DNA of 64,000 nucleotides, from assembly GCA_002722795.1 (NCBI GenBank), contig PBMY01000019.1, forward strand, positions 16,396 through 80,395, read 5' to 3'. Position 1 is the first letter of the stretch, and every line of letters starts with the position of its first letter. The position numbers were made by a program, and so were the translations under genes. Shown in pieces: positions 16,246 to 45,115 of the stretch. This DNA is from Crocinitomicaceae bacterium (GTDB lineage: Bacteria > Bacteroidota > Bacteroidia > Flavobacteriales_D > Sanyastnellaceae). Below the pieces are notes generated by a model. It saw only the letters and a program-made list of their open reading frames with translations. It was not told where the DNA came from and did not search any database.

Positions 16246-17463
16246 ATGGATTCACAAAGAGAAGGAATCAAGGCCTTGGCTAGGGAGGCAGCATTAATAC
16301 CTAAGGAAGAACTTTTACAGGTAAAGGCTGGGTCTTCAGATTTGGTTATTGGTATTCCCAAAGAGACAAGTCTACAAGAGAAAAGAGTTGCAATTACACC
16401 AGAAGCAGTTGCACTTTTAGTTGCGCATGGCCATCAAGTGGTAGTTGAAACAGGTGCTGGAGAGCTCTCCTATTATTCAGACATTGATTATAGTGAATCA
16501 GGTGCTAAGATTGAACACGACAGAAAAGAGGTGCTACAGGCTGGACTCGTAATGAAGGTTGAGCCACCGTCTTTAGAAGAGGTTGGAATGATGAGTACGG
16601 GCGCTACATTAATAAGCGCGCTTCAATTAAGCGTTCAAAATGAGAACTTACTCGAGGCAATGAGCAAAAAGAAGATTACTGCTATTGCTTGGGATTATAT
16701 CAGAAATAAAAGTGGAATTTTCCCTCTTGTAAGGGCAATGAGTGAGATTGCAGGAAATACTTCAATACTTAAAGCCGGCGAATTATTAGCTGCAACTGAT
16801 GGTAGGTCTGCCATGCTTGGTGGAATTAGCGGAGTTAGGCCAAGCACTGTGGTGATTATTGGTGCAGGAACTGTTGGTGAGTTTGCAGCTAGAGCAGCGA
16901 TGGGTTTAGGGGCTCAAGTAAAGATTTTCGATAACAGACAACATAGGTTAGTAAGGATTCAGCAGAGTTTAGGCAGGAGGGTTTGGACTAGTACGATTCA
17001 ACCGTCTGTACTTGATGAGGCTCTTAGGTCAGCTGATGTTGCGATTGGAGCATTAAGAGGAGAGGGCTCTAGATCGCCCATGGTAGTAAGTGAACCCATG
17101 GTAAGTGCCATGAGCAAGAAGAGTGTTGTGATAGATGTGTGTATCGATAGAGGCGGATGTTTTGAAACGTCAAGATTGACATCTCATGAGAATCCAACAT
17201 ACACAGAACTTGGAGTCATTCATTATTGCGTACCAAACCTTGCTTCATGCGTTAGTAGAACAGCTAGCGAAGCGTTGAGCAACATAATAGCTCCGATGTT
17301 ATTGAGCATCGCATCTGATGGTGGGATTGAGTCTGCTGTTAGAAGCGCAAATATAATTCGATCTGGAGTATACATGTTTAAAGGAACATTAACTCACAGT
17401 GGAATAGCTGAAGAAAGGGGAATGGCTTTCAAGGATTTGGACTTGTTGCTTGCTGCATACTAA
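16246..17463 (+). CDS. ald: Alanine dehydrogenase
   Basis: IGIPKETSLQEKRVAITPEAVALLVAHGHQVVVETGAG; NAD-binding VVIIGAGTVGEFAARAAMGLGA. Confidence 0.93.
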   Translation: MDSQREGIKALAREAALIPKEELLQVKAGSSDLVIGIPKETSLQEKRVAITPEAVALLVAHGHQVVVETGAGELSYYSDIDYSESGAKIEHDRKEVLQAGLVMKVEPPSLEEVGMMSTGATLISALQLSVQNENLLEAMSKKKITAIAWDYIRNKSGIFPLVRAMSEIAGNTSILKAGELLAATDGRSAMLGGISGVRPSTVVIIGAGTVGEFAARAAMGLGAQVKIFDNRQHRLVRIQQSLGRRVWTSTIQPSVLDEALRSADVAIGALRGEGSRSPMVVSEPMVSAMSKKSVVIDVCIDRGGCFETSRLTSHENPTYTELGVIHYCVPNLASCVSRTASEALSNIIAPMLLSIASDGGIESAVRSANIIRSGVYMFKGTLTHSGIAEERGMAFKDLDLLLAAY

Positions 17464-28726: not shown

Positions 28727-31700
28727 ATGTATCGTTTTACCATTACCCTTTTCACTGTTTTTTTTGCTGCTATAAATGTTGGAAAAGCTCAGTGTACAAT
28801 TTTCTTCTCAGAGTATGCAGAAGGATCATCAAACAATAAGTATTTAGAAATATACAATCCTACTAATTCAGTAGTAGATCTTAGTGGATATGCATTTCCA
28901 AGTGTTAGTAATGCACCCTCTGTCCCTGGTGAATATGAATATTGGAATACCTTCGATGAGGGTGCTACAATTGAACCGGGGGGATTTTATATAATTGCTC
29001 ATGGATCTTCTGATCCGGCAATTTTGGCATTTGCAAATCAAACCCACACCTACCTTAGTAATGGTGATGATGGATATATGATCGTTCAAGGAACTGAAGA
29101 CGATTATGTACAAATTGATGCAATTGGTGACTGGAATGGAGATCCTGGATCAGGATGGGCTGTTGCTGGTGTATCAAACGCAACAAAAGATCACACTCTT
29201 GTTAGAAAAGAAATCGTAACTCAAGGTAATGGTGGTGATTGGACATTTTCTGCCGGAACTAATGAAGAAGATTCTGAGTGGTATGTTCTACCACAAAACA
29301 CTTGGAACGATTTGGGCTCTCACAGTTTTTATGGAAATTGTGGTTCTGCAATTCTAGGTTGTACTAATCCCAACGCAACAAACTATGACTCTTCTGCTAC
29401 TTCAGATGACGGTAGTTGTGTGTTTGCTAATGCTTGTAATGTGGATGCTGTAGAAGTTGAAGCATATAACTATGGATTTGAACCTACAGACTTAACAATA
29501 GACGTTGGTACGCAAGTTACTTGGACGAACCTTGGTGGAAACCACGATATAAATTTTGACATTAGTGCTTTAACTGGAGAGTCTTTTGGAAACCCAGAGT
29601 CATTTTACATTCCTGCTGTATTTAGTTCAGCATATGAATGCATAGGCTCTCACACGTTTAATTTACCTGGAGTTTATTCTTACGACTGTTCAATTGGAAA
29701 CCATGCTGCAAATGGAATGGTTGGAACAATTACAGTAGGAGTTGGAGGTTGTACTGATGCAGGTGCTCCAAACTATAACGATGGTGCTGATTGGGATGAT
29801 GGAACTTGTCAAGAAGCTCAGTTTACTTCAATATACGATATTCAAGTAGGTCAAGCAACAGGTGCTTATACAGATCAAGTTATAAATACATCAGGTATAG
29901 TAACAGGTGTATTTGGATCTTCAGTTTCTGTGCAAGATGGTACAGGTCCATATTCAGGAATTTGGATGTACGGTTCTGATGCAAACGTACAAGTTGGTGA
30001 TGAGGTTGGAATAACAGCTACAGTAGGAGAGTACTATGACTTAACTCAACTTTCTTCTCCTGCGGTTACAATTATTAGCCAGGGTAATGACTTACCTACT
30101 GCTGAAGTATTAGCAACTGCAGATGTAAGCGCAGAACAGTGGGAAGGTGTATTAGTACGCACAAGTGGAGATGTAGATAATGATGCACTAGGATGGGGCG
30201 AGTGGTCACTTACTGATGGAAGTGAATCAGCTGTTGCAGATGACAAGGGGTATGATGCAATTGGTGCTGGATTAATTTCTGTAGGAGCTACAGTAGATGT
30301 TGTAGGTCCAATTGACTTTGGATTTGGAGCATATAAAATTCAGCCTCGTGATGCATCTGATGTTATGCTTCACGGTTGTATAAATAATACAGCTGATAAC
30401 TATAATGATTTAGCTTCTATAGATGATGGAAGCTGTGAGTTTTCTGGCGCAGAGTGTACGGTCTTCATTTCAGAAATTGCTGAAGGGTCTAGTAATAACA
30501 AGTATTTGGAATTATTCAACCCAACTGGATCAACTATTTTCTTGAGCCAATTTACTATGGCAAATTGTAGTAATGGTTGTGATGATCCGGACGCATTGTA
30601 CTTAACGGATCAATTTGATTATTGGTCATTCTCATTCCCAATTGATGCTACTATTGAACCAAACGGTACATATGTGGTAGCTCACCCAAGTGCAGATCAG
30701 CTAATTCTAGATGTAGCTGACATGACATACAACTACTTGAGTAATGGTGATGACACATACGGTCTTGTAGAGATTGTTGGACAGGATTCAATTTTAGTTG
30801 ATGTTGTTGGAGATATTGGCCCAGACCCGGGGTCTGGTTTTACAGTATCTGGAGTGACAAATGCAACTCAAAATGGAACACTAGTCAGGAAGCCTTCAGT
30901 TATCGCTGGAAATGCTGGCGATTGGGTTGGGTCTGCTGGCACCGATACTTTTGACGGAGAGTGGATTCTCCACCCTTCTAATTACTGGCTAGATATTGAT
31001 GTTCACACTTTTAATGGAGGATGTGCATCTAGCACTTCAGGGTGTACAGACCCAGGAGCAATTAACTATGATGAGAACGCAACTGAAGATGACGGTTCTT
31101 GTTTATACATACCCAACCTTACTATTCAAGAGATTCATTCTAGTAATTTCTCTGGTCAAGTAATCACAGGAGGTGTCGTCACAGCTGTATATGAAGCATC
31201 AAATGCTCTAGCTAATAACCCATCTTTTGTAATCCAAAACGGAACGGGACCATATTCTGCAATTTGGTGTCTGGGTGATGGTGTTGCTGTCGGTGACCTA
31301 GTAGATGTCGCAGGTAACGTAAGTGAAGTATATTTTTTACGCCAAATCCAAGGAGCTACTCCAACAATTATTTCTTCTGACAATGTACTCCCAGAGCCTC
31401 AGTTACTTGCAACTACAGTAATTAATGATGATCAATGGGAAAGTGTACTTCTTCAATTACTTGCACCAGTGTCAAATGCTGATGCCGGATATGGTGAGTG
31501 GTTATTAGACGATGGATCAGGTGTAGCTGCTGTTGATGACTTCGCATACGATGCAGTTGGAGATAGTGTTGATGTTGACGGGGTTATCACACCAGTTGTT
31601 GCTGAGGGTGTAACATACAGAGTAACTGGACCTAATTTCTATGCATATGGAGCTTGGAAACTAGTACCGAGAGATTCATCAGATGTTGTACGGTTGGGAT

Positions 31701-32746
31701 GTATGGATTCTTCATTCGCTAACTATGACCCACTAGCTGCCGAAGATGATGGCTCGTGTGTAAACACTGAGGGCTGTACAGATGAAAGTGCGGACAATTA
31801 TAATCCAAACGCAACTCTAGATGATGGTTCATGTGTAATTACAGGTTGTAATGATGAGAATGCTCTTAACTACAATCCCAATACAACTAATGAAGAAAAT
31901 TCTTCTTGTTACTACACTCTTCCATCAATTATTATCAATGAGATTCATTACAATCCTTGTTCAGCACAAGGTGATGATTTCGAGTGGGAGTTCTGTGAGC
32001 TTCTTAACTTAGGAGATCTTGCAGCTGATATTAGCGGATACCAGTTTATTAATGGAGCATCCGGCGAGGACCAAGTAGGTCTTGTATTCCCAGAAGGAAC
32101 TTCAATTGGTTCTGGCGAGTTTATCGTAATAACAGTTGCTGGTGGACTTGGAGCTCCTAACTATCAGGGTAATGGTTACCAAGTATTTACGATGGATCTT
32201 GGGAACTTCTCTAATTCAGGTGAGTTATTATCCTTGCAAGATGCTTGGGGAAATGAAGTTGATGCAGTGTCTTATTCAGACGAAGGAGAATGGCCATCTG
32301 ATGGCTTTAGTATCCTAGGTTCTGTTCTGATAGCAAGCCCAGACGGAGGTTGTGCTTCATTAGAATATATTCCAGAAATTCTTTTTGAGTACATAGCAGG
32401 TGTGCCAGGAATGGATAATGAGTATGCTTCTAACTGGCAAGCTTCATGGGTTGATGGCGGTACTCCGGGAGCGCCAAACTCATCTGCATTTGGTTGTAAT
32501 GACGCTACAGCATGTAACTATAACCCAACAGCTTTCTTAGCTGATAACGACAATTGTACTTATGATTGTTACGGTTGTACATACATAACAGCAGAGAACT
32601 ACAATAGTGGAGCAACATTTGATGACGGTACCTGTACTTTCAGTATTGCTGAAGATACTTGCCCTGAGGATTTAAATGGAGATGGTGCTGTTTCTACCGG
32701 TGACCTTCTTCAGTTCCTATCTGCATTCGGAGAAATCTGTGACTAA
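28727..32746 (+). CDS. Large secreted multidomain protein: lamin-tail-like domains, blue-copper-like domain, OB-like domains, GC..NY..DDGSC repeats, dockerin-like C-terminus
   Basis: 1339 aa; signal peptide; CTIFFSEYAEGSSNNKYLEIYNPTN and CTVFISEIAEGSSNNKYLELFNPTG (LTD); IIINEIHYNP (LTD); NYGFEPTDLTIDVGTQVTWTN...YDCSIGNHAANGMVGTITV (cupredoxin-like); C-terminal DLNGDGAVSTGDLLQFLSAFG. Confidence 0.8.
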   Translation: MYRFTITLFTVFFAAINVGKAQCTIFFSEYAEGSSNNKYLEIYNPTNSVVDLSGYAFPSVSNAPSVPGEYEYWNTFDEGATIEPGGFYIIAHGSSDPAILAFANQTHTYLSNGDDGYMIVQGTEDDYVQIDAIGDWNGDPGSGWAVAGVSNATKDHTLVRKEIVTQGNGGDWTFSAGTNEEDSEWYVLPQNTWNDLGSHSFYGNCGSAILGCTNPNATNYDSSATSDDGSCVFANACNVDAVEVEAYNYGFEPTDLTIDVGTQVTWTNLGGNHDINFDISALTGESFGNPESFYIPAVFSSAYECIGSHTFNLPGVYSYDCSIGNHAANGMVGTITVGVGGCTDAGAPNYNDGADWDDGTCQEAQFTSIYDIQVGQATGAYTDQVINTSGIVTGVFGSSVSVQDGTGPYSGIWMYGSDANVQVGDEVGITATVGEYYDLTQLSSPAVTIISQGNDLPTAEVLATADVSAEQWEGVLVRTSGDVDNDALGWGEWSLTDGSESAVADDKGYDAIGAGLISVGATVDVVGPIDFGFGAYKIQPRDASDVMLHGCINNTADNYNDLASIDDGSCEFSGAECTVFISEIAEGSSNNKYLELFNPTGSTIFLSQFTMANCSNGCDDPDALYLTDQFDYWSFSFPIDATIEPNGTYVVAHPSADQLILDVADMTYNYLSNGDDTYGLVEIVGQDSILVDVVGDIGPDPGSGFTVSGVTNATQNGTLVRKPSVIAGNAGDWVGSAGTDTFDGEWILHPSNYWLDIDVHTFNGGCASSTSGCTDPGAINYDENATEDDGSCLYIPNLTIQEIHSSNFSGQVITGGVVTAVYEASNALANNPSFVIQNGTGPYSAIWCLGDGVAVGDLVDVAGNVSEVYFLRQIQGATPTIISSDNVLPEPQLLATTVINDDQWESVLLQLLAPVSNADAGYGEWLLDDGSGVAAVDDFAYDAVGDSVDVDGVITPVVAEGVTYRVTGPNFYAYGAWKLVPRDSSDVVRLGCMDSSFANYDPLAAEDDGSCVNTEGCTDESADNYNPNATLDDGSCVITGCNDENALNYNPNTTNEENSSCYYTLPSIIINEIHYNPCSAQGDDFEWEFCELLNLGDLAADISGYQFINGASGEDQVGLVFPEGTSIGSGEFIVITVAGGLGAPNYQGNGYQVFTMDLGNFSNSGELLSLQDAWGNEVDAVSYSDEGEWPSDGFSILGSVLIASPDGGCASLEYIPEILFEYIAGVPGMDNEYASNWQASWVDGGTPGAPNSSAFGCNDATACNYNPTAFLADNDNCTYDCYGCTYITAENYNSGATFDDGTCTFSIAEDTCPEDLNGDGAVSTGDLLQFLSAFGEICD
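29357..32635 (+). repeat. Nine interspersed protein repeats G-C-(x)n-N-Y-(x)n-D-D-G-[ST]-C (two degenerate)
   Basis: GCTNPNATNYDSSATSDDGSC; GCTDAGAPNYNDGADWDDGTC; GCINNTADNYNDLASIDDGSC; GCTDPGAINYDENATEDDGSC; GCMDSSFANYDPLAAEDDGSC; GCTDESADNYNPNATLDDGSC; GCNDENALNYNPNTTNEENSSC; GCNDATACNYNPTAFLADNDNC; GCTYITAENYNSGATFDDGTC. Confidence 0.9.
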
Positions 32747-36954: not shown

Positions 36955-38703
36955 TTAGTGTCCAGAGTAAGGAACAGGAGTTCCAACTCTAGTCATTGCA
37001 CATCTAAACCCGATGTCAGCTGACGATTGAGTCTCATCTAAGAAACGACGAGTACCTGGAACAAGCCAATAAGCTCTATCATTCCAACCACCACCTTTGT
37101 ATACTCTAGATTGGTTGTTTACAAGCGAAGATGCGCCGTAATCGTACATCCTATTCATATCTTGCCTTCCTTCGTCACCTTGTCCAAACGCGATCGAGCT
37201 GTTAAAATCACCATCAAGGTAATCGATGTTATTTGCCTCTCGGTAGTTGCTTCTGTTAATATTTTCTTCAACAGTAACGTCTCTGAACTTCATGTCTCCG
37301 GGTACAGCAATAATATTGTCACTCATGCCTTTTCTTAGGTCAGCAGCTACCAAAGCTTCACTTTCTTCGATCATATCCATTGCGTCTGCCATGATAGTTT
37401 GGGCTTCTTCCTCTTGCTTCTTTTTATCAGCTTCTGAAGCTTCTTCAAATTTAACTTCTAATGAGTTCATAAGCTCGTCATCTTCTGGTGTTACGGCTTT
37501 AGACCCAATCTTTCGTCTGTAATCATTAAGAAATGCAGTAGTTCCTGGAATATCATAAACTACGTAATCATATTTATCAGCAGGGTTGCCCTCTGGATTA
37601 TGTACCATTGTTTGGTAGTTGTTACCACGATATGGACGGAATTCTTCAGAGTCTAGAGTAGAAAGTGGACGATATACATCCATAACCCACTCGTTTACGT
37701 TGCCAGCCATATTAAATAGGCCGTAATCATTTGGAGCGTAAGCTCTAACCTGTACAGTGATATCACCGAAGTCATCTAATGCTCCAGCAACACCCATGTA
37801 ATCACCTCTTCCTTTTACGAAGTTTGCGTTAATGTCGCCAAATCCTTTGTCTCTAGTTTTGTCATTACGTATGTAGTGACCATCCCATGGGTAAGTTCTA
37901 CGCTCTTCAATAAGTTCACCGTAGCTGTTACCAATAAGACCTAGAGCAGCATACTCCCACTCAGCTTCTGTTGGAAGTCTGTAATCAGGAAGTAGAACTC
38001 CGTCCTCCATGCGAATATCACGATATCCACTAGAGTTTGGACTATAATCTTTAATTCCTTCAGCATCTCTTTCGCCAACATATTGACGATTTAAGTAAGT
38101 ATCAGTTGTAAAATGCTCTTCATCCATTTGAGATTCTGGGTTGTGAACAAAAAGTCCCTCTTGAACTAGGATGTTTTCATTTACACGATCAGTTCTCCAC
38201 TTACAAAAGTCGGTTGCCTGTCTCCAACTTACTCCAACTACAGGGTAATCTCTGTATGCTGGGTGGCGTAGGTAGTAATCTACCATTGGCTCATTGTAAG
38301 CAAGCTTTTCTCTCCAAGCTAATGTGTCCGGAAGAGCTCTCTCAACGATTTCAGGGAAGCTGTTTCCATAGATTCTGTCTAACCAATTTAGGTATTCAAG
38401 CCAAAACATATTTGTTACCTCAGTTTCATCCATGTAGAATGAACTTACAGTAACTCGTCTTGGAGAGTTGTCCCAATTATTTGTTAGGTCGTCTTCAACC
38501 TGTCCCATTGTGAAAGTACCACCTTCAACGAAGATGAGACCAGGTCCGGTTTGTTGCTCGTAGAAGTTTGCCTTCTCAAATCCTCCGTTTTCAGTTTTGT
38601 TGTACTTCCATCCAGTTGCACCAGAACGTTCTCGGTAACAACCAGTCAAGGCAAACATAATGCCTAGTGAAGCTATTAATGTAATGTGTAGTTTCAATTT
38701 CAT
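36955..38703 (-). CDS. gldJ: T9SS/gliding lipoprotein GldJ (SUMF1/FGE-sulfatase-like fold)
   Basis: Lipobox ALTGC; GGTFTMGQVEDDLTNNWDNSPRRVTVSSFYMDETEVTN; YRLPTEAEWEYAAL; GGGWNDRAYWLVPGTRRFLDE...SSADIGFRCAM; next to porP/porU/porV. Confidence 0.93.
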   Translation of the reverse strand: MKLKLHITLIASLGIMFALTGCYRERSGATGWKYNKTENGGFEKANFYEQQTGPGLIFVEGGTFTMGQVEDDLTNNWDNSPRRVTVSSFYMDETEVTNMFWLEYLNWLDRIYGNSFPEIVERALPDTLAWREKLAYNEPMVDYYLRHPAYRDYPVVGVSWRQATDFCKWRTDRVNENILVQEGLFVHNPESQMDEEHFTTDTYLNRQYVGERDAEGIKDYSPNSSGYRDIRMEDGVLLPDYRLPTEAEWEYAALGLIGNSYGELIEERRTYPWDGHYIRNDKTRDKGFGDINANFVKGRGDYMGVAGALDDFGDITVQVRAYAPNDYGLFNMAGNVNEWVMDVYRPLSTLDSEEFRPYRGNNYQTMVHNPEGNPADKYDYVVYDIPGTTAFLNDYRRKIGSKAVTPEDDELMNSLEVKFEEASEADKKKQEEEAQTIMADAMDMIEESEALVAADLRKGMSDNIIAVPGDMKFRDVTVEENINRSNYREANNIDYLDGDFNSSIAFGQGDEGRQDMNRMYDYGASSLVNNQSRVYKGGGWNDRAYWLVPGTRRFLDETQSSADIGFRCAMTRVGTPVPYSGH

Positions 38704-38749
38704 CGTAATAGGTTTGATGATCTAGTCTAAGATTCTTGCAGTTATATAA

Positions 38750-39769
38750 CTAGAAAGTTGGGCAAGGTATTTTACGGAACTTGCCTTTTTTCGATTTACA
38801 GTCAAATTTCAATGTCATGCTCAACTCGTGAGCACCACCTGTAGCAGGGGTTAATTCAGAGATAGTAATATCGTAGCTGTAACCGAATCTCATAATATCA
38901 GATTCAATTCCAATTACAGCGATAAGAGCATCTCTGTATACAGGTTCTTCAGAGCTAGAGAAGAAAACTCCTCTATACCAAACGCCGCCAAATAAAGGGC
39001 CTTTATTCACGAAAAGACCAGTGTTGAGTTGCTTAAACTCAGCCTGCTTACGAAATAAGAAGTTTGGTGATATTGAGGCTAATACCTCATTCTTTATATT
39101 TTTCTTAATTGGGAACTTACCTCCAGCATGAACGGTTAATTTCATTGGAAGACGGCTAAGTCCTACAACTAGAGATTCGTTTGGCTCGTTTAAGTGATGA
39201 GCAGCAAATCCTAGATGAAGCTTTGGCGTGAAAAGTAAAAGGCCTGCACCGAAATCAACATTTTGAACCTTACCACCTCTAGGAGTATCTTGAGTTTCAT
39301 AGATGAAACCACGACGAGGATCAATCATGTCTCCAAAAGTCAAGTTGCTCCAATCTAGAGCTTTCTGGAAATAGCTTGCCTCAAGCGCTGCTCTCATGCT
39401 AAGCTTTCTAGTTAGACTTTGTTGATATGCATACATTCCGGTAATTCGGGTAGTCTGTAAAGTGCTTTGGCCTGCCTGATCATGTAGAACAGTCAATCCA
39501 AGTCCTCCTTGAATAGAATTCAAGTGCTGATCATAAGAAACAGCGTTAGTTACATAACTTCCGCTCATTGCCGGCCATTGGTTTCTATATGACATCACCA
39601 TTCTAGGGCAACGGTCAGAACCAGCAAAAGCTGGGTTAAGGAATAGTGGATTCGCGTAGTACTGAGTAAACTCAGGGTCTTGTGCTTGCGCTTCATTAGC
39701 TGCGCCAACAACTAGAACGAACGCAAGAAGCGTATAGCGAATTAGGTATTTCAGTTTCATTTTCAACAT
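38750..39769 (-). CDS. PorP/SprF-family type IX secretion outer-membrane protein
   Basis: QDPEFTQYYANPLFLNPAFAGSDRCPRMVMSYRNQWPAM is the PorP/SprF signature; start moved inside the GTG-started ORF (39790). Confidence 0.93.
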   Translation of the reverse strand: MLKMKLKYLIRYTLLAFVLVVGAANEAQAQDPEFTQYYANPLFLNPAFAGSDRCPRMVMSYRNQWPAMSGSYVTNAVSYDQHLNSIQGGLGLTVLHDQAGQSTLQTTRITGMYAYQQSLTRKLSMRAALEASYFQKALDWSNLTFGDMIDPRRGFIYETQDTPRGGKVQNVDFGAGLLLFTPKLHLGFAAHHLNEPNESLVVGLSRLPMKLTVHAGGKFPIKKNIKNEVLASISPNFLFRKQAEFKQLNTGLFVNKGPLFGGVWYRGVFFSSSEEPVYRDALIAVIGIESDIMRFGYSYDITISELTPATGGAHELSMTLKFDCKSKKGKFRKIPCPTF

Positions 39770-39906
39770 AGAGGTTCCCATTGAACTCACAAGTATACGA
39801 AATTTACAACATTTATTTTGGGTGGGTCTTAAAGCGTAGCTTTAACAATAACACCGTACAAATGACGTTTATTCCTTGATTCTTGCCGAAATTTGACAAA
39901 TAACTA

Positions 39907-42900
39907 ATGAGCGTCGACGCAAAAAATAAAAGGATATGCACACTCTCTCGTGTGTTTAAGGTTTTTACCGTGACTTTTTTGTGTATGTACACTAGTGAAA
40001 GTCAGATTTTTGCGCAAGTCGATGAAGTTTCTGAAGCTCAAGTAATAGAAGCACATTGGGAATTAACGGAGACGACAGAAATTCTCGACGAATTGTCTCC
40101 AACAGTCATTGCCGAGTTCCAAATTGATAGTCGTTGGAGTGGCGTAGAAGTCTTAGATGAAACTTTATTATGGGAGAATTTCACTCAAGAATCGAATGAA
40201 TTTGACCAAAATATAGGTAAGTTTTTTACTGTTAATCGCCCTGAATGGCGTGTAGTTAGAGGCGATAATTCAAATAGTTACTTAGCTCAGGTAAGATTAC
40301 CTGCATTTCGCATTGAAAATGGCCAAACTCAAAGACTTGCTTCATGGTCTGGAGTAATTGCATCATCCCCCGCATTATACAATAGAATCCAAAGGGATTG
40401 GCCCGAAAATTCAGTTCTTTCCACAGGAAGTTGGATAAAATTTGCCACTACAAAAGAGGGTATTCACAGAATCGAATATTCGGATTTAACTGCATCAGGA
40501 TTAGATCCTGATTCACTTAATTTCAATAAGATTCAGCTATATGGTGGCGGAGGACAACAGCTTCCATTTTTAAACGATACTGAGCGTCCACTCGATCTTC
40601 CGCTGATTCCCATTAAAACAAATGGAGAGGCTGATGGAGCTTTTAATCAGGGTGACGCAATATTCTTTCATGCTTCAGGTGTGAATACTTGGGAATATGA
40701 TGAGGGCGATGATATGTGGAAACATAACCTACACGCTTGGTCTGATACTGCGTTTTACTTCATGCGACTTGATGGGGAATCAAACCTCGAAGGGAGCCGA
40801 ATTTTAGCCGCAGACGAAATTATGAGCCCGGCTACTGAAACTTATACCAAGCACCTTGCTAGGAGGTTTCACGAAGTGGAATTGACAAATTTGGCGCATT
40901 CCGGAAGGGAATTCTATAATGAGCACTTTACATATTTGGGGTCCCAAGTGTTTAGCATAAATTTCGATATTCCGAATCTCACAGGTGATACTGGTCATGT
41001 TAGTTCTAGGATAGCGGGCCGAACTTTAGGGACAACGAGTGATTATACCATGAGTTGTGTAGGTGAGCAGTACACCACTTCGGATGTTAGCCTTACTGAG
41101 AATAGTCTTCTTATAGCCCAAAAGAGGAACTTAAATATTTCAGCACCACTTAACGGGGATGGTGTAATCGTAGAGATGTCTTATTCACCAGGCAATAGCG
41201 AGGCCGAGGGGTGGATTGATTATGTCAGGGTGCAGGCTTGGCAGCATTTAATATTTTACGGAGGACAGTTTCATGTGAATGGGACTCATTATACTGAAGA
41301 GGAAGAAATAGTGGAATACCTTCTTGAGGATGCCCAAACCGTAGATGAAGTTTGGGATATCACTAATCATTTGGAACCTAAAATTTGCGAAGTCGAAGGA
41401 CTAGGAACAAACCAAATCAGCTGGAAATCAGATAAGGATACGACTAGAAGATTTGTGTCATTCCGTTACAGTTCGTCACACCAAGTTGAACCATTGGGTG
41501 TTGTTGCTAATTCTAATTTGCATTCACTTCAGGATATAGATTTGGTGATTTTAACCTCTCCAATTTTGGATTCGGCTGCATACCGATTAGCGACTCTTCA
41601 TGCCAATGAGGGTATGAGAGTTGCCGTTGTAAATCAACGTGAGTTGTGGAATAGTTTTTCTTCTGGTTCGCCCGACCCTACAGCTCTTAAGATGTTAATG
41701 ATGATGTTGAAGGATAAGGCTGAAGACCCAGTAAATGAGCCCAAACATCTTCTTCTCATGGGCGATGGAACTTATTTAAATAGGAATCTTAATCCTGACG
41801 GGATTAACCTACTGACATTCCAAAGCGAGAACTCAGAAAGCACAGTGAGTAGCTATGTGACGGACGATTATTTTGGGATTCTAGAGGATGGGTTTGGTGA
41901 GGCCCCTGGGGATAAGCTAGCTATCGGAGTCGGGAGAATTCCCGCTTCGAGCTTAGGTGATGCACTTGGAATGGTGGCAAAGATTGAGACTTATTTGGGT
42001 GAGCCTATCGATACTGTGGGTGTTGGGAGTTGCTCGGGAGATGAAGCCTCGTCTACTTTTGGGGCGTGGAGAAATAAAATTTTGTTTGTGACGGATGATC
42101 AGGATGGGAATAATAATGATGGGTGGCGTCATATGTCCGATAGCGAGGTACATTCGGATCACGTTTCCGAGAATTACAATGATTACGATGTGATTAAGAT
42201 TTATCCTGATTCTTATGTACAGGAGGCCACGCCTGGGGGTGAGAGATATGATGAGGCAGAGGCTGAAATTCAGCGGAAAGTTGAGGAGGGGGCTTTGATT
42301 GTGGATTATATAGGTCATGGAGGTGCTAGGGGATGGGCGCACGAAAGAATTTTGAATACGACAACTATTAGGGAGTGGACAAACAAGAATAGGTTGCCAG
42401 TATTTATGACAGCTACATGTGAGTTGTCGAGGTATGACGATCCAGATGTGGAGTCAGCAGGAGAGATGTTGATATTCAATCCTGACGGAGGAGCTGTAGG
42501 GACATTAACTACTACGAGGACTGTATTTAGTGGAGGCAACCAAGAGTTGAACACAGCATTTTTCCAAACTGTTTTAAATGAGGATGCTGGTACAGGCCAA
42601 ATGCGTTGCCTAGGTGATATCTGTAAAGACACAAAAAACAGCAACATCGTCACTAGTACAGTAAACATGAGGAATTTCTCTCTTTTAGGTGATCCTGCAA
42701 TGATGCTAGCTTATCCTGCTGAAAATATTTATATAACTGAAATTCCGGATACTATTAAGAGTTTGGACTTAGTTACAATAAGTGGATACGTAGGAAATGC
42801 TGAGGGGGATACTTTGACGGATTTTAATGGTAGAATCTATCCAACGGTTTTTGACAAACGCTCTTATTTAAACACTTTAGATAATGATCAAGTTGCCGGT

Positions 42901-43779
42901 GCATTTGCCTACAGCATGTTCAGAAATGTTATATATAAAGGACTTGCGAGTGTGGAGGGCGGCACATTTACATTTCAATTTGTTGTGCCAAGAGATATTG
43001 ATTATACATTTGGTAAAGGAAGAGTGAGCTGCTACGCTCTTAGTGGTGATAGAGATGCCCATGGAGCTACAGAAGACTTTGTTATAGGCGGAACTTCAGA
43101 TTCCATTATAATAGATAATGAGGGTCCTCAGGTTCAACTTTATATGAACGACAGCTTATTTATAAGCGGAGGAATCACTTCTGATGATCCCTGGCTTTAC
43201 GCTAAAGTATACGATGAAAGTGGCATAAATACGGTCGGAAATGGAATAGGCCACGATCTGAAAGCAGTTCTTGATGGCGAATATGACAATCCATTTATTC
43301 TAAATTCCTACTTTGCTGCAGACTTAGATACATACAAAAGTGGTACTGTCAGGTTTCCATTTAGAGACTTGGAAGAGGGTGTACATCACTTGGAATTAAA
43401 GGTTTGGGATGTCCAAAACAATAGCGCAACAGCTACAACAGAGTTTATAGTTGTAAATTCTCTAGATGTTGCATTAAACACAGTGTATGCTTACCCAAAT
43501 CCTGCATATTATGAGACTACTTTCCGCTTTTCGCACAATCAAGAATGCAACGCTGTAACAGCTAAACTTGAGATTTACGATAGCAGTGGACGATATGTAA
43601 GAGGTTATGAAACTGACTTGCACGCTCAAGGATCTACCACAGACCTATTGAAGTGGGATCTGACAAATGATGGTGGAGCAAAGGTGGAACAAGGTATTTA
43701 CCTTTTTAAAATAGAATTAATAGCGATAAATGGCGCTTCCGCACAATATGGAAGTAAACTTGTCGTTGTAGGGCCGTAA
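39907..43779 (+). CDS. porU: Type IX secretion system sortase PorU
   Basis: 1290 aa; gingipain-like peptidase region; catalytic context VDYIGHGGARGWAHE and FMTATCELSRYDD; C-terminal Por-sorting-like domain VYAYPNPAYYETTFRF. Confidence 0.93.
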   Translation: MSVDAKNKRICTLSRVFKVFTVTFLCMYTSESQIFAQVDEVSEAQVIEAHWELTETTEILDELSPTVIAEFQIDSRWSGVEVLDETLLWENFTQESNEFDQNIGKFFTVNRPEWRVVRGDNSNSYLAQVRLPAFRIENGQTQRLASWSGVIASSPALYNRIQRDWPENSVLSTGSWIKFATTKEGIHRIEYSDLTASGLDPDSLNFNKIQLYGGGGQQLPFLNDTERPLDLPLIPIKTNGEADGAFNQGDAIFFHASGVNTWEYDEGDDMWKHNLHAWSDTAFYFMRLDGESNLEGSRILAADEIMSPATETYTKHLARRFHEVELTNLAHSGREFYNEHFTYLGSQVFSINFDIPNLTGDTGHVSSRIAGRTLGTTSDYTMSCVGEQYTTSDVSLTENSLLIAQKRNLNISAPLNGDGVIVEMSYSPGNSEAEGWIDYVRVQAWQHLIFYGGQFHVNGTHYTEEEEIVEYLLEDAQTVDEVWDITNHLEPKICEVEGLGTNQISWKSDKDTTRRFVSFRYSSSHQVEPLGVVANSNLHSLQDIDLVILTSPILDSAAYRLATLHANEGMRVAVVNQRELWNSFSSGSPDPTALKMLMMMLKDKAEDPVNEPKHLLLMGDGTYLNRNLNPDGINLLTFQSENSESTVSSYVTDDYFGILEDGFGEAPGDKLAIGVGRIPASSLGDALGMVAKIETYLGEPIDTVGVGSCSGDEASSTFGAWRNKILFVTDDQDGNNNDGWRHMSDSEVHSDHVSENYNDYDVIKIYPDSYVQEATPGGERYDEAEAEIQRKVEEGALIVDYIGHGGARGWAHERILNTTTIREWTNKNRLPVFMTATCELSRYDDPDVESAGEMLIFNPDGGAVGTLTTTRTVFSGGNQELNTAFFQTVLNEDAGTGQMRCLGDICKDTKNSNIVTSTVNMRNFSLLGDPAMMLAYPAENIYITEIPDTIKSLDLVTISGYVGNAEGDTLTDFNGRIYPTVFDKRSYLNTLDNDQVAGAFAYSMFRNVIYKGLASVEGGTFTFQFVVPRDIDYTFGKGRVSCYALSGDRDAHGATEDFVIGGTSDSIIIDNEGPQVQLYMNDSLFISGGITSDDPWLYAKVYDESGINTVGNGIGHDLKAVLDGEYDNPFILNSYFAADLDTYKSGTVRFPFRDLEEGVHHLELKVWDVQNNSATATTEFIVVNSLDVALNTVYAYPNPAYYETTFRFSHNQECNAVTAKLEIYDSSGRYVRGYETDLHAQGSTTDLLKWDLTNDGGAKVEQGIYLFKIELIAINGASAQYGSKLVVVGP

Positions 43780-43792
43780 TCCTAGATTACAT

Positions 43793-45115
43793 TTGCAATT
43801 CCTAATGAAAAAAAAGCATTTATTATTTTCTAGTGCTATAGCAGTTGTTCTTGCTATTCTTCCTAATAGGTATCAATGTCAAATTGATCCCGACGAAGAT
43901 CCAACGCAGTTTTTTCAACTTAATACGATTACTACAGCTGTCCCTTTTTTGATGATTGGTCCAGACTCTAGATCAGGTGCACTCGGTGATGCAGGTGTGG
44001 CACTTTCTCCTGATGCAAATAGTTTGCATTGGAATCCTGCCAAAATGGCTTTCTCAGATAGCGAATTAGACGTGAGCCTTTGTTACACACCTTGGTTAAG
44101 GGCGTTGGTTGATGATATGAATTTGGCCTATTTGAGTGGAGTAAATAAACTAAATCGTAAGCAGGCATTAGGTTATGCACTTAGATATTTCAGCTTAGGT
44201 AACATCACATTTACTGATGAACAGGGCCAAACAATTAGAGACTTCCAGCCAGCCGAATTCAGTCTTGACGTAGGATTTTCCCAAAAGTTTTCTGACAAGT
44301 TCAGCGGCGGTGTTACAGGAAGGTTCATCCATTCTAACTTAACAGGTGGAGTTACAGTTGTTGGTGCTGAATCAAAACCGGGAATATCAGTAGCAGCAGA
44401 TTTGGGTTTGTTCTACACTAATAAACGCGCTAATTGGTTTGGGGGTAAGGGCATGTTCAATTGGGGGATGAATATTTCAAATATCGGATCTAAGATGAGC
44501 TACACTGCAACTGCAGCAAGAGACTTTATTCCCGGAAATCTTAGATTAGGTGCTGCATATAAAATGCAGATTGACGATTACAATGCTCTGACATTCACAT
44601 TCGATTTAAACAAGTTACTTGTTCCAACTCAGCCTATTTATCACGAGTATGATATTAGTACTATTGTCAGTGGATTCGATCCCAACGTTGGCGTTGCTAC
44701 AGGTATAGTTCAATCATTCTACGATGCTCCAGGTGTAGTGACATTTACTGATTCAATAAACCTTCAGCCCGTTGGACCAGAAGGAGCTATGGTTGATGTT
44801 TACCACGACCCAAGCGAGTACACTGTTGAACAAGGATCTGTATTTAGAGAGGAGCTCAGAGAAATCAATATTGGTGGAGGGCTTGAATATGGCTTTATGG
44901 ATGTTTTTTCCTTTAGAACGGGATACTTCTTTGAGCACTACTCAAAAGGAAATAGACAGTTTATTGCAATGGGTGCTGGTCTGAAGTACACGGTATTCAA
45001 TATTGACCTTAGTTACATAATCAGTACTACTCAGCAAAACCCTCTTGCTAATACACTTAGGTTTACTCTGTCACTTCAGTTTTCAGATTTAGAAGAGTTC
45101 CTCAAAGAGGATTAA
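43793..45115 (+). CDS. porV: Type IX secretion outer-membrane protein PorV
   Basis: FLMIGPDSRSGALGDAGVALSPDANSLHWNPAKMAF; directly after porU. Confidence 0.95.
   Translation: MQFLMKKKHLLFSSAIAVVLAILPNRYQCQIDPDEDPTQFFQLNTITTAVPFLMIGPDSRSGALGDAGVALSPDANSLHWNPAKMAFSDSELDVSLCYTPWLRALVDDMNLAYLSGVNKLNRKQALGYALRYFSLGNITFTDEQGQTIRDFQPAEFSLDVGFSQKFSDKFSGGVTGRFIHSNLTGGVTVVGAESKPGISVAADLGLFYTNKRANWFGGKGMFNWGMNISNIGSKMSYTATAARDFIPGNLRLGAAYKMQIDDYNALTFTFDLNKLLVPTQPIYHEYDISTIVSGFDPNVGVATGIVQSFYDAPGVVTFTDSINLQPVGPEGAMVDVYHDPSEYTVEQGSVFREELREINIGGGLEYGFMDVFSFRTGYFFEHYSKGNRQFIAMGAGLKYTVFNIDLSYIISTTQQNPLANTLRFTLSLQFSDLEEFLKED

Follow-up and report, generated by a model that had tools for sequence, protein, structure and literature searches.

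Layout of the Protein

The window analyzed here is the whole 64,000-nucleotide stretch (positions 16,396 to 80,395) of contig PBMY01000019.1 from a Crocinitomicaceae bacterium, and the subject of this work is an open reading frame (ORF) at positions 28727–32746 of its plus strand, which is open from an ATG start and encodes a protein of 1339 aa. The product consists of a signal peptide, three LTDs, one cupredoxin domain, two tandem-OB blocks, nine Cys repeats, and a tail resembling half a dockerin (Table 1). The orthologues share the same hydrophobic N-terminus, ending ...AQC. Searches of Pfam and NCBIfam matched no catalytic domain in the protein, and no EEP domain either, in accordance with a preliminary description of this DNA, which had seen no catalytic nuclease domain and had placed nine Cys repeats in the order found here.

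The same description had named LTD, cupredoxin, and OB folds and proposed profile searches, structure prediction, and a search for the architecture in relatives, all of which agree with it on these folds: PF00932 and PF00127 scored above their cut-offs, with dockerin profiles below theirs; Foldseek recovered the cupredoxin and lamin-type LTD3 folds; the OB folds were obtained by prediction and through distant PF01336 matches; and the same architecture was found in 18 genomes.

Table 1. Coordinates of the encoded domains, predicted copper ligands, and downstream secretion and gliding genes in the window.
Feature	Position	Strand	Basis
Signal peptide (residues 1–21)	28727..28789	+	Read from sequence; mature start near Q22-C23
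LTD1 (residues 22–206)	28790..29344	+	PF00932; closed by invariant C23 + C205
Cys repeat 1 (C212–C231, GCTNPNATNYDSSATSDDGSC)	29360..29419	+	Sequence; both Cys invariant
Cupredoxin domain (residues 236–338)	29432..29740	+	PF00127 above cut-off; PDB plastocyanins; Foldseek
H273, predicted type-1 copper ligand	29543..29545	+	Kept in 17/17
C321, H326, M331, predicted copper ligands (C-x4-H-x4-M)	29687..29719	+	C, H kept in 16/17; M in 17/17
Cys repeat 2 (C342–C361)	29750..29809	+	Invariant Cys
OB block 1 (residues 363–548)	29813..30370	+	OB2 identity; EEP-nuclease homologues; beta-rich confident model
Cys repeat 3 (C551–C570)	30377..30436	+	Invariant Cys
LTD2 (residues 577–766)	30455..31024	+	PF00932; LTD1 identity; own clade
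Cys repeat 4 (C773–C792)	31043..31102	+	Invariant Cys
OB block 2 (residues 796–986), two tandem OB folds	31112..31684	+	AlphaFold2; Foldseek
Cys repeats 5–7 (C992–C1011, C1017–C1036, C1041–C1061)	31700..31909	+	Invariant Cys
LTD3 (residues 1063–1249), other LTD subtype	31913..32473	+	PF00932 best stretch 1066–1184; Foldseek; Cys covariation
Cys repeats 8–9 (six Cys, 1257–1303)	32495..32635	+	Invariant Cys
C-terminal tail, one F-hand between C1312 and C1338 (CPEDLNGDGAVSTGDLLQFLSAFGEICD)	32660..32743	+	Profile searches, position
GldJ	36955–38703	-	NCBIfam best match, slightly below model cut-off
PorP/SprF	38750–39790	-	NCBIfam
PorU	39907–43779	+	NCBIfam
PorV-like	43793–45115	+	Sequence inspection

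Cupredoxin Domain and Predicted Copper Site

The cupredoxin domain matched PF00127 at residues 243–337 with 30.5 bits (cut-off 21.2) and PDB plastocyanins by sequence, and its model resembled pseudoazurins and plastocyanins in Foldseek (probability 1.0, TM to target up to 0.73). The potential type-1 copper ligands pointed out earlier, H273, C321, H326, and M331, are kept as a complete set in 16 of the 17 orthologues spanning the region; on this basis, the domain has an intact type-1 ligand set (2 His, Cys, Met) and forms a predicted copper site. The sole loss occurs in L037, where C321 and H326 are gone together (YDSGIASDVVAGM) and the remainder of the protein is retained; judged from its sequence, L037 would be a natural copper-free variant.

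The domain shares its fold and its H, C, H, M ligand set with the plastocyanin/azurin family PF00127 but differs in being a single domain within a 1339-aa modular protein, in the spacing C-x4-H-x4-M, and in two additional invariant Cys, C237/C305, which probably form a disulphide. A second copper-domain protein is encoded in the same genome, and shorter ones (~400 aa) occur in the genus.

LTD and OB Modules

PF00932 matched three stretches of the protein (127.8 bits, cut-off 34.3), and partial NCBIfam matches to ExeM/NucH (NF033680/NF033681) were confined to the N-terminal LTD and OB parts. AlphaFold2 models were built from orthologue alignments for residues 22–575 (pLDDT 80) and 766–1339 (pLDDT 70). 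Among the LTDs, Foldseek covered LTD3 only, whose model resembles the immunoglobulin (Ig) fold of lamin A/C and B1 (TM to target 0.73–0.79). The OB2 model, with pLDDT mostly 85–95, matches the tandem-OB HIN-200 domains, Teb1, CST, and RPA, and by this prediction the OB blocks are OB beta-barrels. OB1 is not separately visible among the Foldseek matches listed, which are occupied by cupredoxins, and is assigned because it is 41% identical to OB2. The OB blocks had no direct Pfam match; their distant homologues match the OB-fold family PF01336 inside or beside the homologous stretch. Further homologues occur in EEP nucleases of Chloroflexota (L131, L136), where they adjoin EEP domains, and in proteins of several phyla with tails of type A of the type IX secretion system (T9SS).

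The recurrence of LTD and OB units in the same order had been taken as a sign of segmental duplication, and this idea stands only in part. LTD1 and LTD2 are 49% identical, and the OB identity given above also speaks for it, but LTD3 belongs to another subtype (26%), the OB blocks fall into separate clades, and LTD1 is part of a module set common to several proteins. The OB tree separates the blocks by position, with a supported clade for the OB1s from every orthologue and a second for the OB2s, the relations between the two being unresolved in the module tree; in the LTD tree, the LTD2s form a clade, and the LTD1s cluster with LTDs from L128 and L002, which are other proteins, and not just with one another. 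Therefore, the module order, with OB1 and OB2 already distinct, was set in the common ancestor, and modules have been exchanged between proteins. As far as sequences indicate, shuffling of modules from an ancient stock, or duplication before the family's orthologues arose, fits better than duplication within the gene, and a recent within-gene duplication, unsupported by the module trees, was rejected: any such event would at best be ancient. In L035, the first LTD (residues 27–199) falls in another LTD clade, which suggests that an LTD module was replaced inside an otherwise orthologous protein.

Cys Framework and Phage Matches

Thirty of the 35 Cys are invariant across the orthologues, including all those of the nine repeats, for which no Pfam family was matched. 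C1078 and C1209 of LTD3 are present or absent together, which is consistent with a disulphide. Because the invariant Cys other than the copper ligand are even in number, we infer that the protein would contain 15 disulphides and one free copper-ligand Cys.

A phage origin of the Cys repeat was considered and rejected, as only three weak phage matches were found. Weak matches to the repeat lie in Synechococcus phage ACG-2014j (33176–33307) and Marine virus AG-345-P14 (63113–63277), one of them within an annotated virion structural protein.

Orthologues and Genomic Locus

The full-length architecture is kept at 53–84% identity in 18 genomes, end-to-end complete or nearly so in 14, and therefore is not due to chance. 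Orthologues that are essentially full-length or cut by a contig end occur in 13 genomes of the genus, that of the source organism included, and in the family genomes g3, g5, g10, and g14; the match in G006 is reduced to the C-terminal two thirds. A scan of named genomes showed an orthologue in more than 30 Flavobacteriales metagenome-assembled genomes (MAGs), mostly marine and many titled Crocinitomicaceae or Flavobacteriales. Four records (L084, L119, L121, and L127) are titled Euryarchaeota, Chryseobacterium gleum, or Rhodopirellula and yet have full or partial synteny with the Flavobacteriales locus, so that their titles or binning are probably wrong.

The orthologue is single-copy in each genome and occupies one syntenic locus (rnhB to GldJ/PorP/PorU), as judged as far as the contigs extend, with the kept order GT – rnhB – focal gene – lipoprotein – acyl ligase-like – TyrS – MurF – GldJ – PorP – PorU. 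The T9SS/gliding cluster (36955–45115) lies about 4–12 kb downstream of the gene, and its order up to PorU is shared by related MAGs. In other genera (L125–L128), the same locus encodes a related protein with different LTD/OB arrangements and the same tail, in which no cupredoxin was detected by BLAST.

C-Terminal F-Hand Tail

The tail had been described as dockerin-like, and the likeness extends to a Cys-flanked F-hand at the extreme C-terminus, as in GC-type dockerin (NF041540) and Dockerin_1 (PF00404). It differs from these families in having one repeat and scores below the cut-offs (13.9 vs. 22.9 bits for Dockerin_1 and 17 vs. 29 bits for GC-type dockerin). Read from its sequence, it is thus a single Cys-flanked F-hand and not a two-repeat dockerin. 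No cohesin above the cut-off was found in the 14 genus genomes searched, including that of the source organism (~83% complete), and a cohesin partner for the tail was rejected on these grounds.

The source genome contains at least 18 ORFs (loci L050–L079) with the tail at about E 1e-5 or better, all counts of tails and type-A domains being lower bounds. These ORFs carry either one or two F-hands, and one two-hand version reaches both the Pfam and NCBIfam cut-offs; in all 17 ORFs checked, the tail ends 0–4 residues from the stop. A subtilisin-like protease (L018/L054) is among the tail-bearing ORFs. At least 53 ORFs of the genome exceed the cut-off for the T9SS type-A domain, with zero overlap with the tail ORFs listed; the type-A families TIGR04183/PF18962 were unmatched in the 1339-aa protein, which is also absent from the type-A ORFs listed.

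Among 120 genomes of the order, the tail-rich ones (20 to at least 68 tails) all belong to the source family, and other families have at most 3; in the phylum sample, the tail occurs in 3 of 198 genomes, and both multi-copy genomes belong to the source family. Within this family, an inverse relation was observed between the densities (per Mb) of tails and of type-A candidates (Spearman −0.57, n = 31), based on unscored counts and with kinship ignored.

The tail resembles the T9SS C-terminal domains of types A, B, and C (TIGR04183, TIGR04131, and type C) as a shared C-terminal tag in a T9SS-positive genome; it differs from them as a 30-residue F-hand without a match to those families. T9SS C-terminal domains are Ig-like beta-sandwiches (PMC10202324). 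A tentative explanation, which we hold to be possible rather than probable, is that the tail is an unrecognised C-terminal export or surface-anchoring signal, which the family would have invented from a dockerin-like module and placed on tens of secreted proteins beside the T9SS type-A domain or partly in its stead, the 1339-aa protein being its best-conserved large cargo. The nearby T9SS genes and the distribution of the tag are circumstantial indications of a T9SS substrate of a new type.

Kinship with Extracellular Nucleases

In Shewanella, ExeM cannot do without its OB-like region, and full nuclease activity also requires its LTD (PMC6085458). An association of LTD and OB-like domains with extracellular nucleases had been pointed out for this protein and is borne out by the partial ExeM/NucH matches and by the OB homologues in EEP nucleases. 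The protein has, like ExeM/NucH, an LTD followed by an OB-like region; unlike them, it has no EEP domain and possesses three LTDs, two OB blocks, a cupredoxin, Cys repeats, and a different C-terminal tag.

The same genome encodes a separate secreted EEP nuclease/phosphatase-like protein of 560 aa (C29:43016–44695, L163/L164), which contains a single Cys repeat, ends in the same one-F-hand tail, and has neither LTD nor OB. A homologue of it is present in 15 of the 18 genomes with a full orthologue and in 5 of the 19 other family genomes (Fisher p 0.0008). Judging by sequence, it is a possible partner in trans.

Interpretation

Taken together, these data lead us to favor, with about even confidence, a non-enzymatic, disulphide-stapled scaffold that presents a ligand at the cell surface or in the matrix and combines ExeM-type modules, a redox-capable copper site, and a C-terminal sorting or anchoring tag; the adhesive, matrix, or metal-binding scaffold proposed in the preliminary description is plausible. 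According to this model, the protein would be exported through Sec by means of its signal peptide and then reach the outer membrane or pass beyond it. The LTDs (Ig fold) and tandem-OB modules would have been retained for binding, with no EEP nuclease attached, rigid two-Cys linkers would space the modules, and the type-1 site of the cupredoxin would bind copper and pass single electrons at the surface or outside the cell. At the very C-terminus, the Cys-flanked F-hand would replace the T9SS type-A domain as the tag by which the family sorts or anchors such proteins. The ORF, its domains and predicted folds, the conserved ligands and Cys, the synteny, the position and distribution of the tag, and the lack of an enzyme are observed; the copper loading, the bound ligand, the surface location, and the function of the tag are what we infer.

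Every domain of the protein is already known; their combination, the conserved locus, and the use of the tail were not found in a limited literature search, which also returned no paper on GC-type dockerin or on Crocinitomicaceae together with dockerin. In a lineage with many members in marine MAG collections, ExeM-type accessory modules are here conserved without the nuclease and joined to an intact predicted copper site. Should the tail prove to act in export or anchoring, a fourth class of C-terminal tags would be added in T9SS-bearing Bacteroidota, and tens of secreted proteins per genome would be reclassified.

Several observations weigh against the scaffold. The AlphaFold2 alignments contain 16–18 related rows, and with pTM of 0.46–0.47 the domain orientation is of low confidence, as are the second half of LTD3 and the tail in the models. 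The role of the tail as a sorting or anchoring tag is drawn from its position and distribution, with which it fits. The mature protein has 193 D+E versus 16 K+R (net about −176), and this strong negative charge speaks against direct binding of a polyanion (nucleic acid) unless calcium bridges the two. The OB blocks of EEP nuclease proteins are equally acidic; therefore, charge does not settle DNA binding.

The charge also counts against an alternative that we regard as unlikely, in which the protein is an accessory of a nuclease acting in trans, i.e., the substrate-presenting half of a split ExeM whose other half is the tail-bearing EEP protein. The composition of the 560-aa protein and its co-occurrence with the orthologue are in line with such a pair; however, the two genes are not neighbors, shared ancestry, with one genus dominating, and incomplete genomes confound the co-occurrence, and in much of the genus the EEP homologues are only ~30% identical. 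The same low probability is given to an extracellular copper or electron-transfer protein, in which the cupredoxin does the work and the LTD, OB, and Cys modules merely position it. Its intact, conserved ligands and the other copper-domain proteins of the genome and genus would be expected in this case, but the same-locus equivalents L125–L128 show no cupredoxin by BLAST, and L037 lost two ligands and kept the remainder; therefore, what stays constant in these proteins is something other than the copper domain.

Least probable of all, and improbable in itself, is a true dockerin docking into a cohesin scaffold in a cellulosome-like manner. The EF-hand/dockerin-like consensus and the two-F-hand versions in the genome, one of them reaching the cut-offs, are compatible with it, and cohesin–dockerin systems have been proposed in Cloacimonadota (PMC8542988); the single sub-cut-off F-hand and the lack of a cohesin above cut-off in the 14 genus genomes argue the other way. 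Slightly less probable than the nuclease accessory and the copper protein is a surface protein of structural or adhesive function that binds no ligand in particular, its domains being generic beta-rich spacers. The genome does encode many repetitive Cys-repeat proteins, and the modules shuffle freely, but in the single-locus orthologues the module order, the Cys frame, and the copper ligands are strongly conserved.

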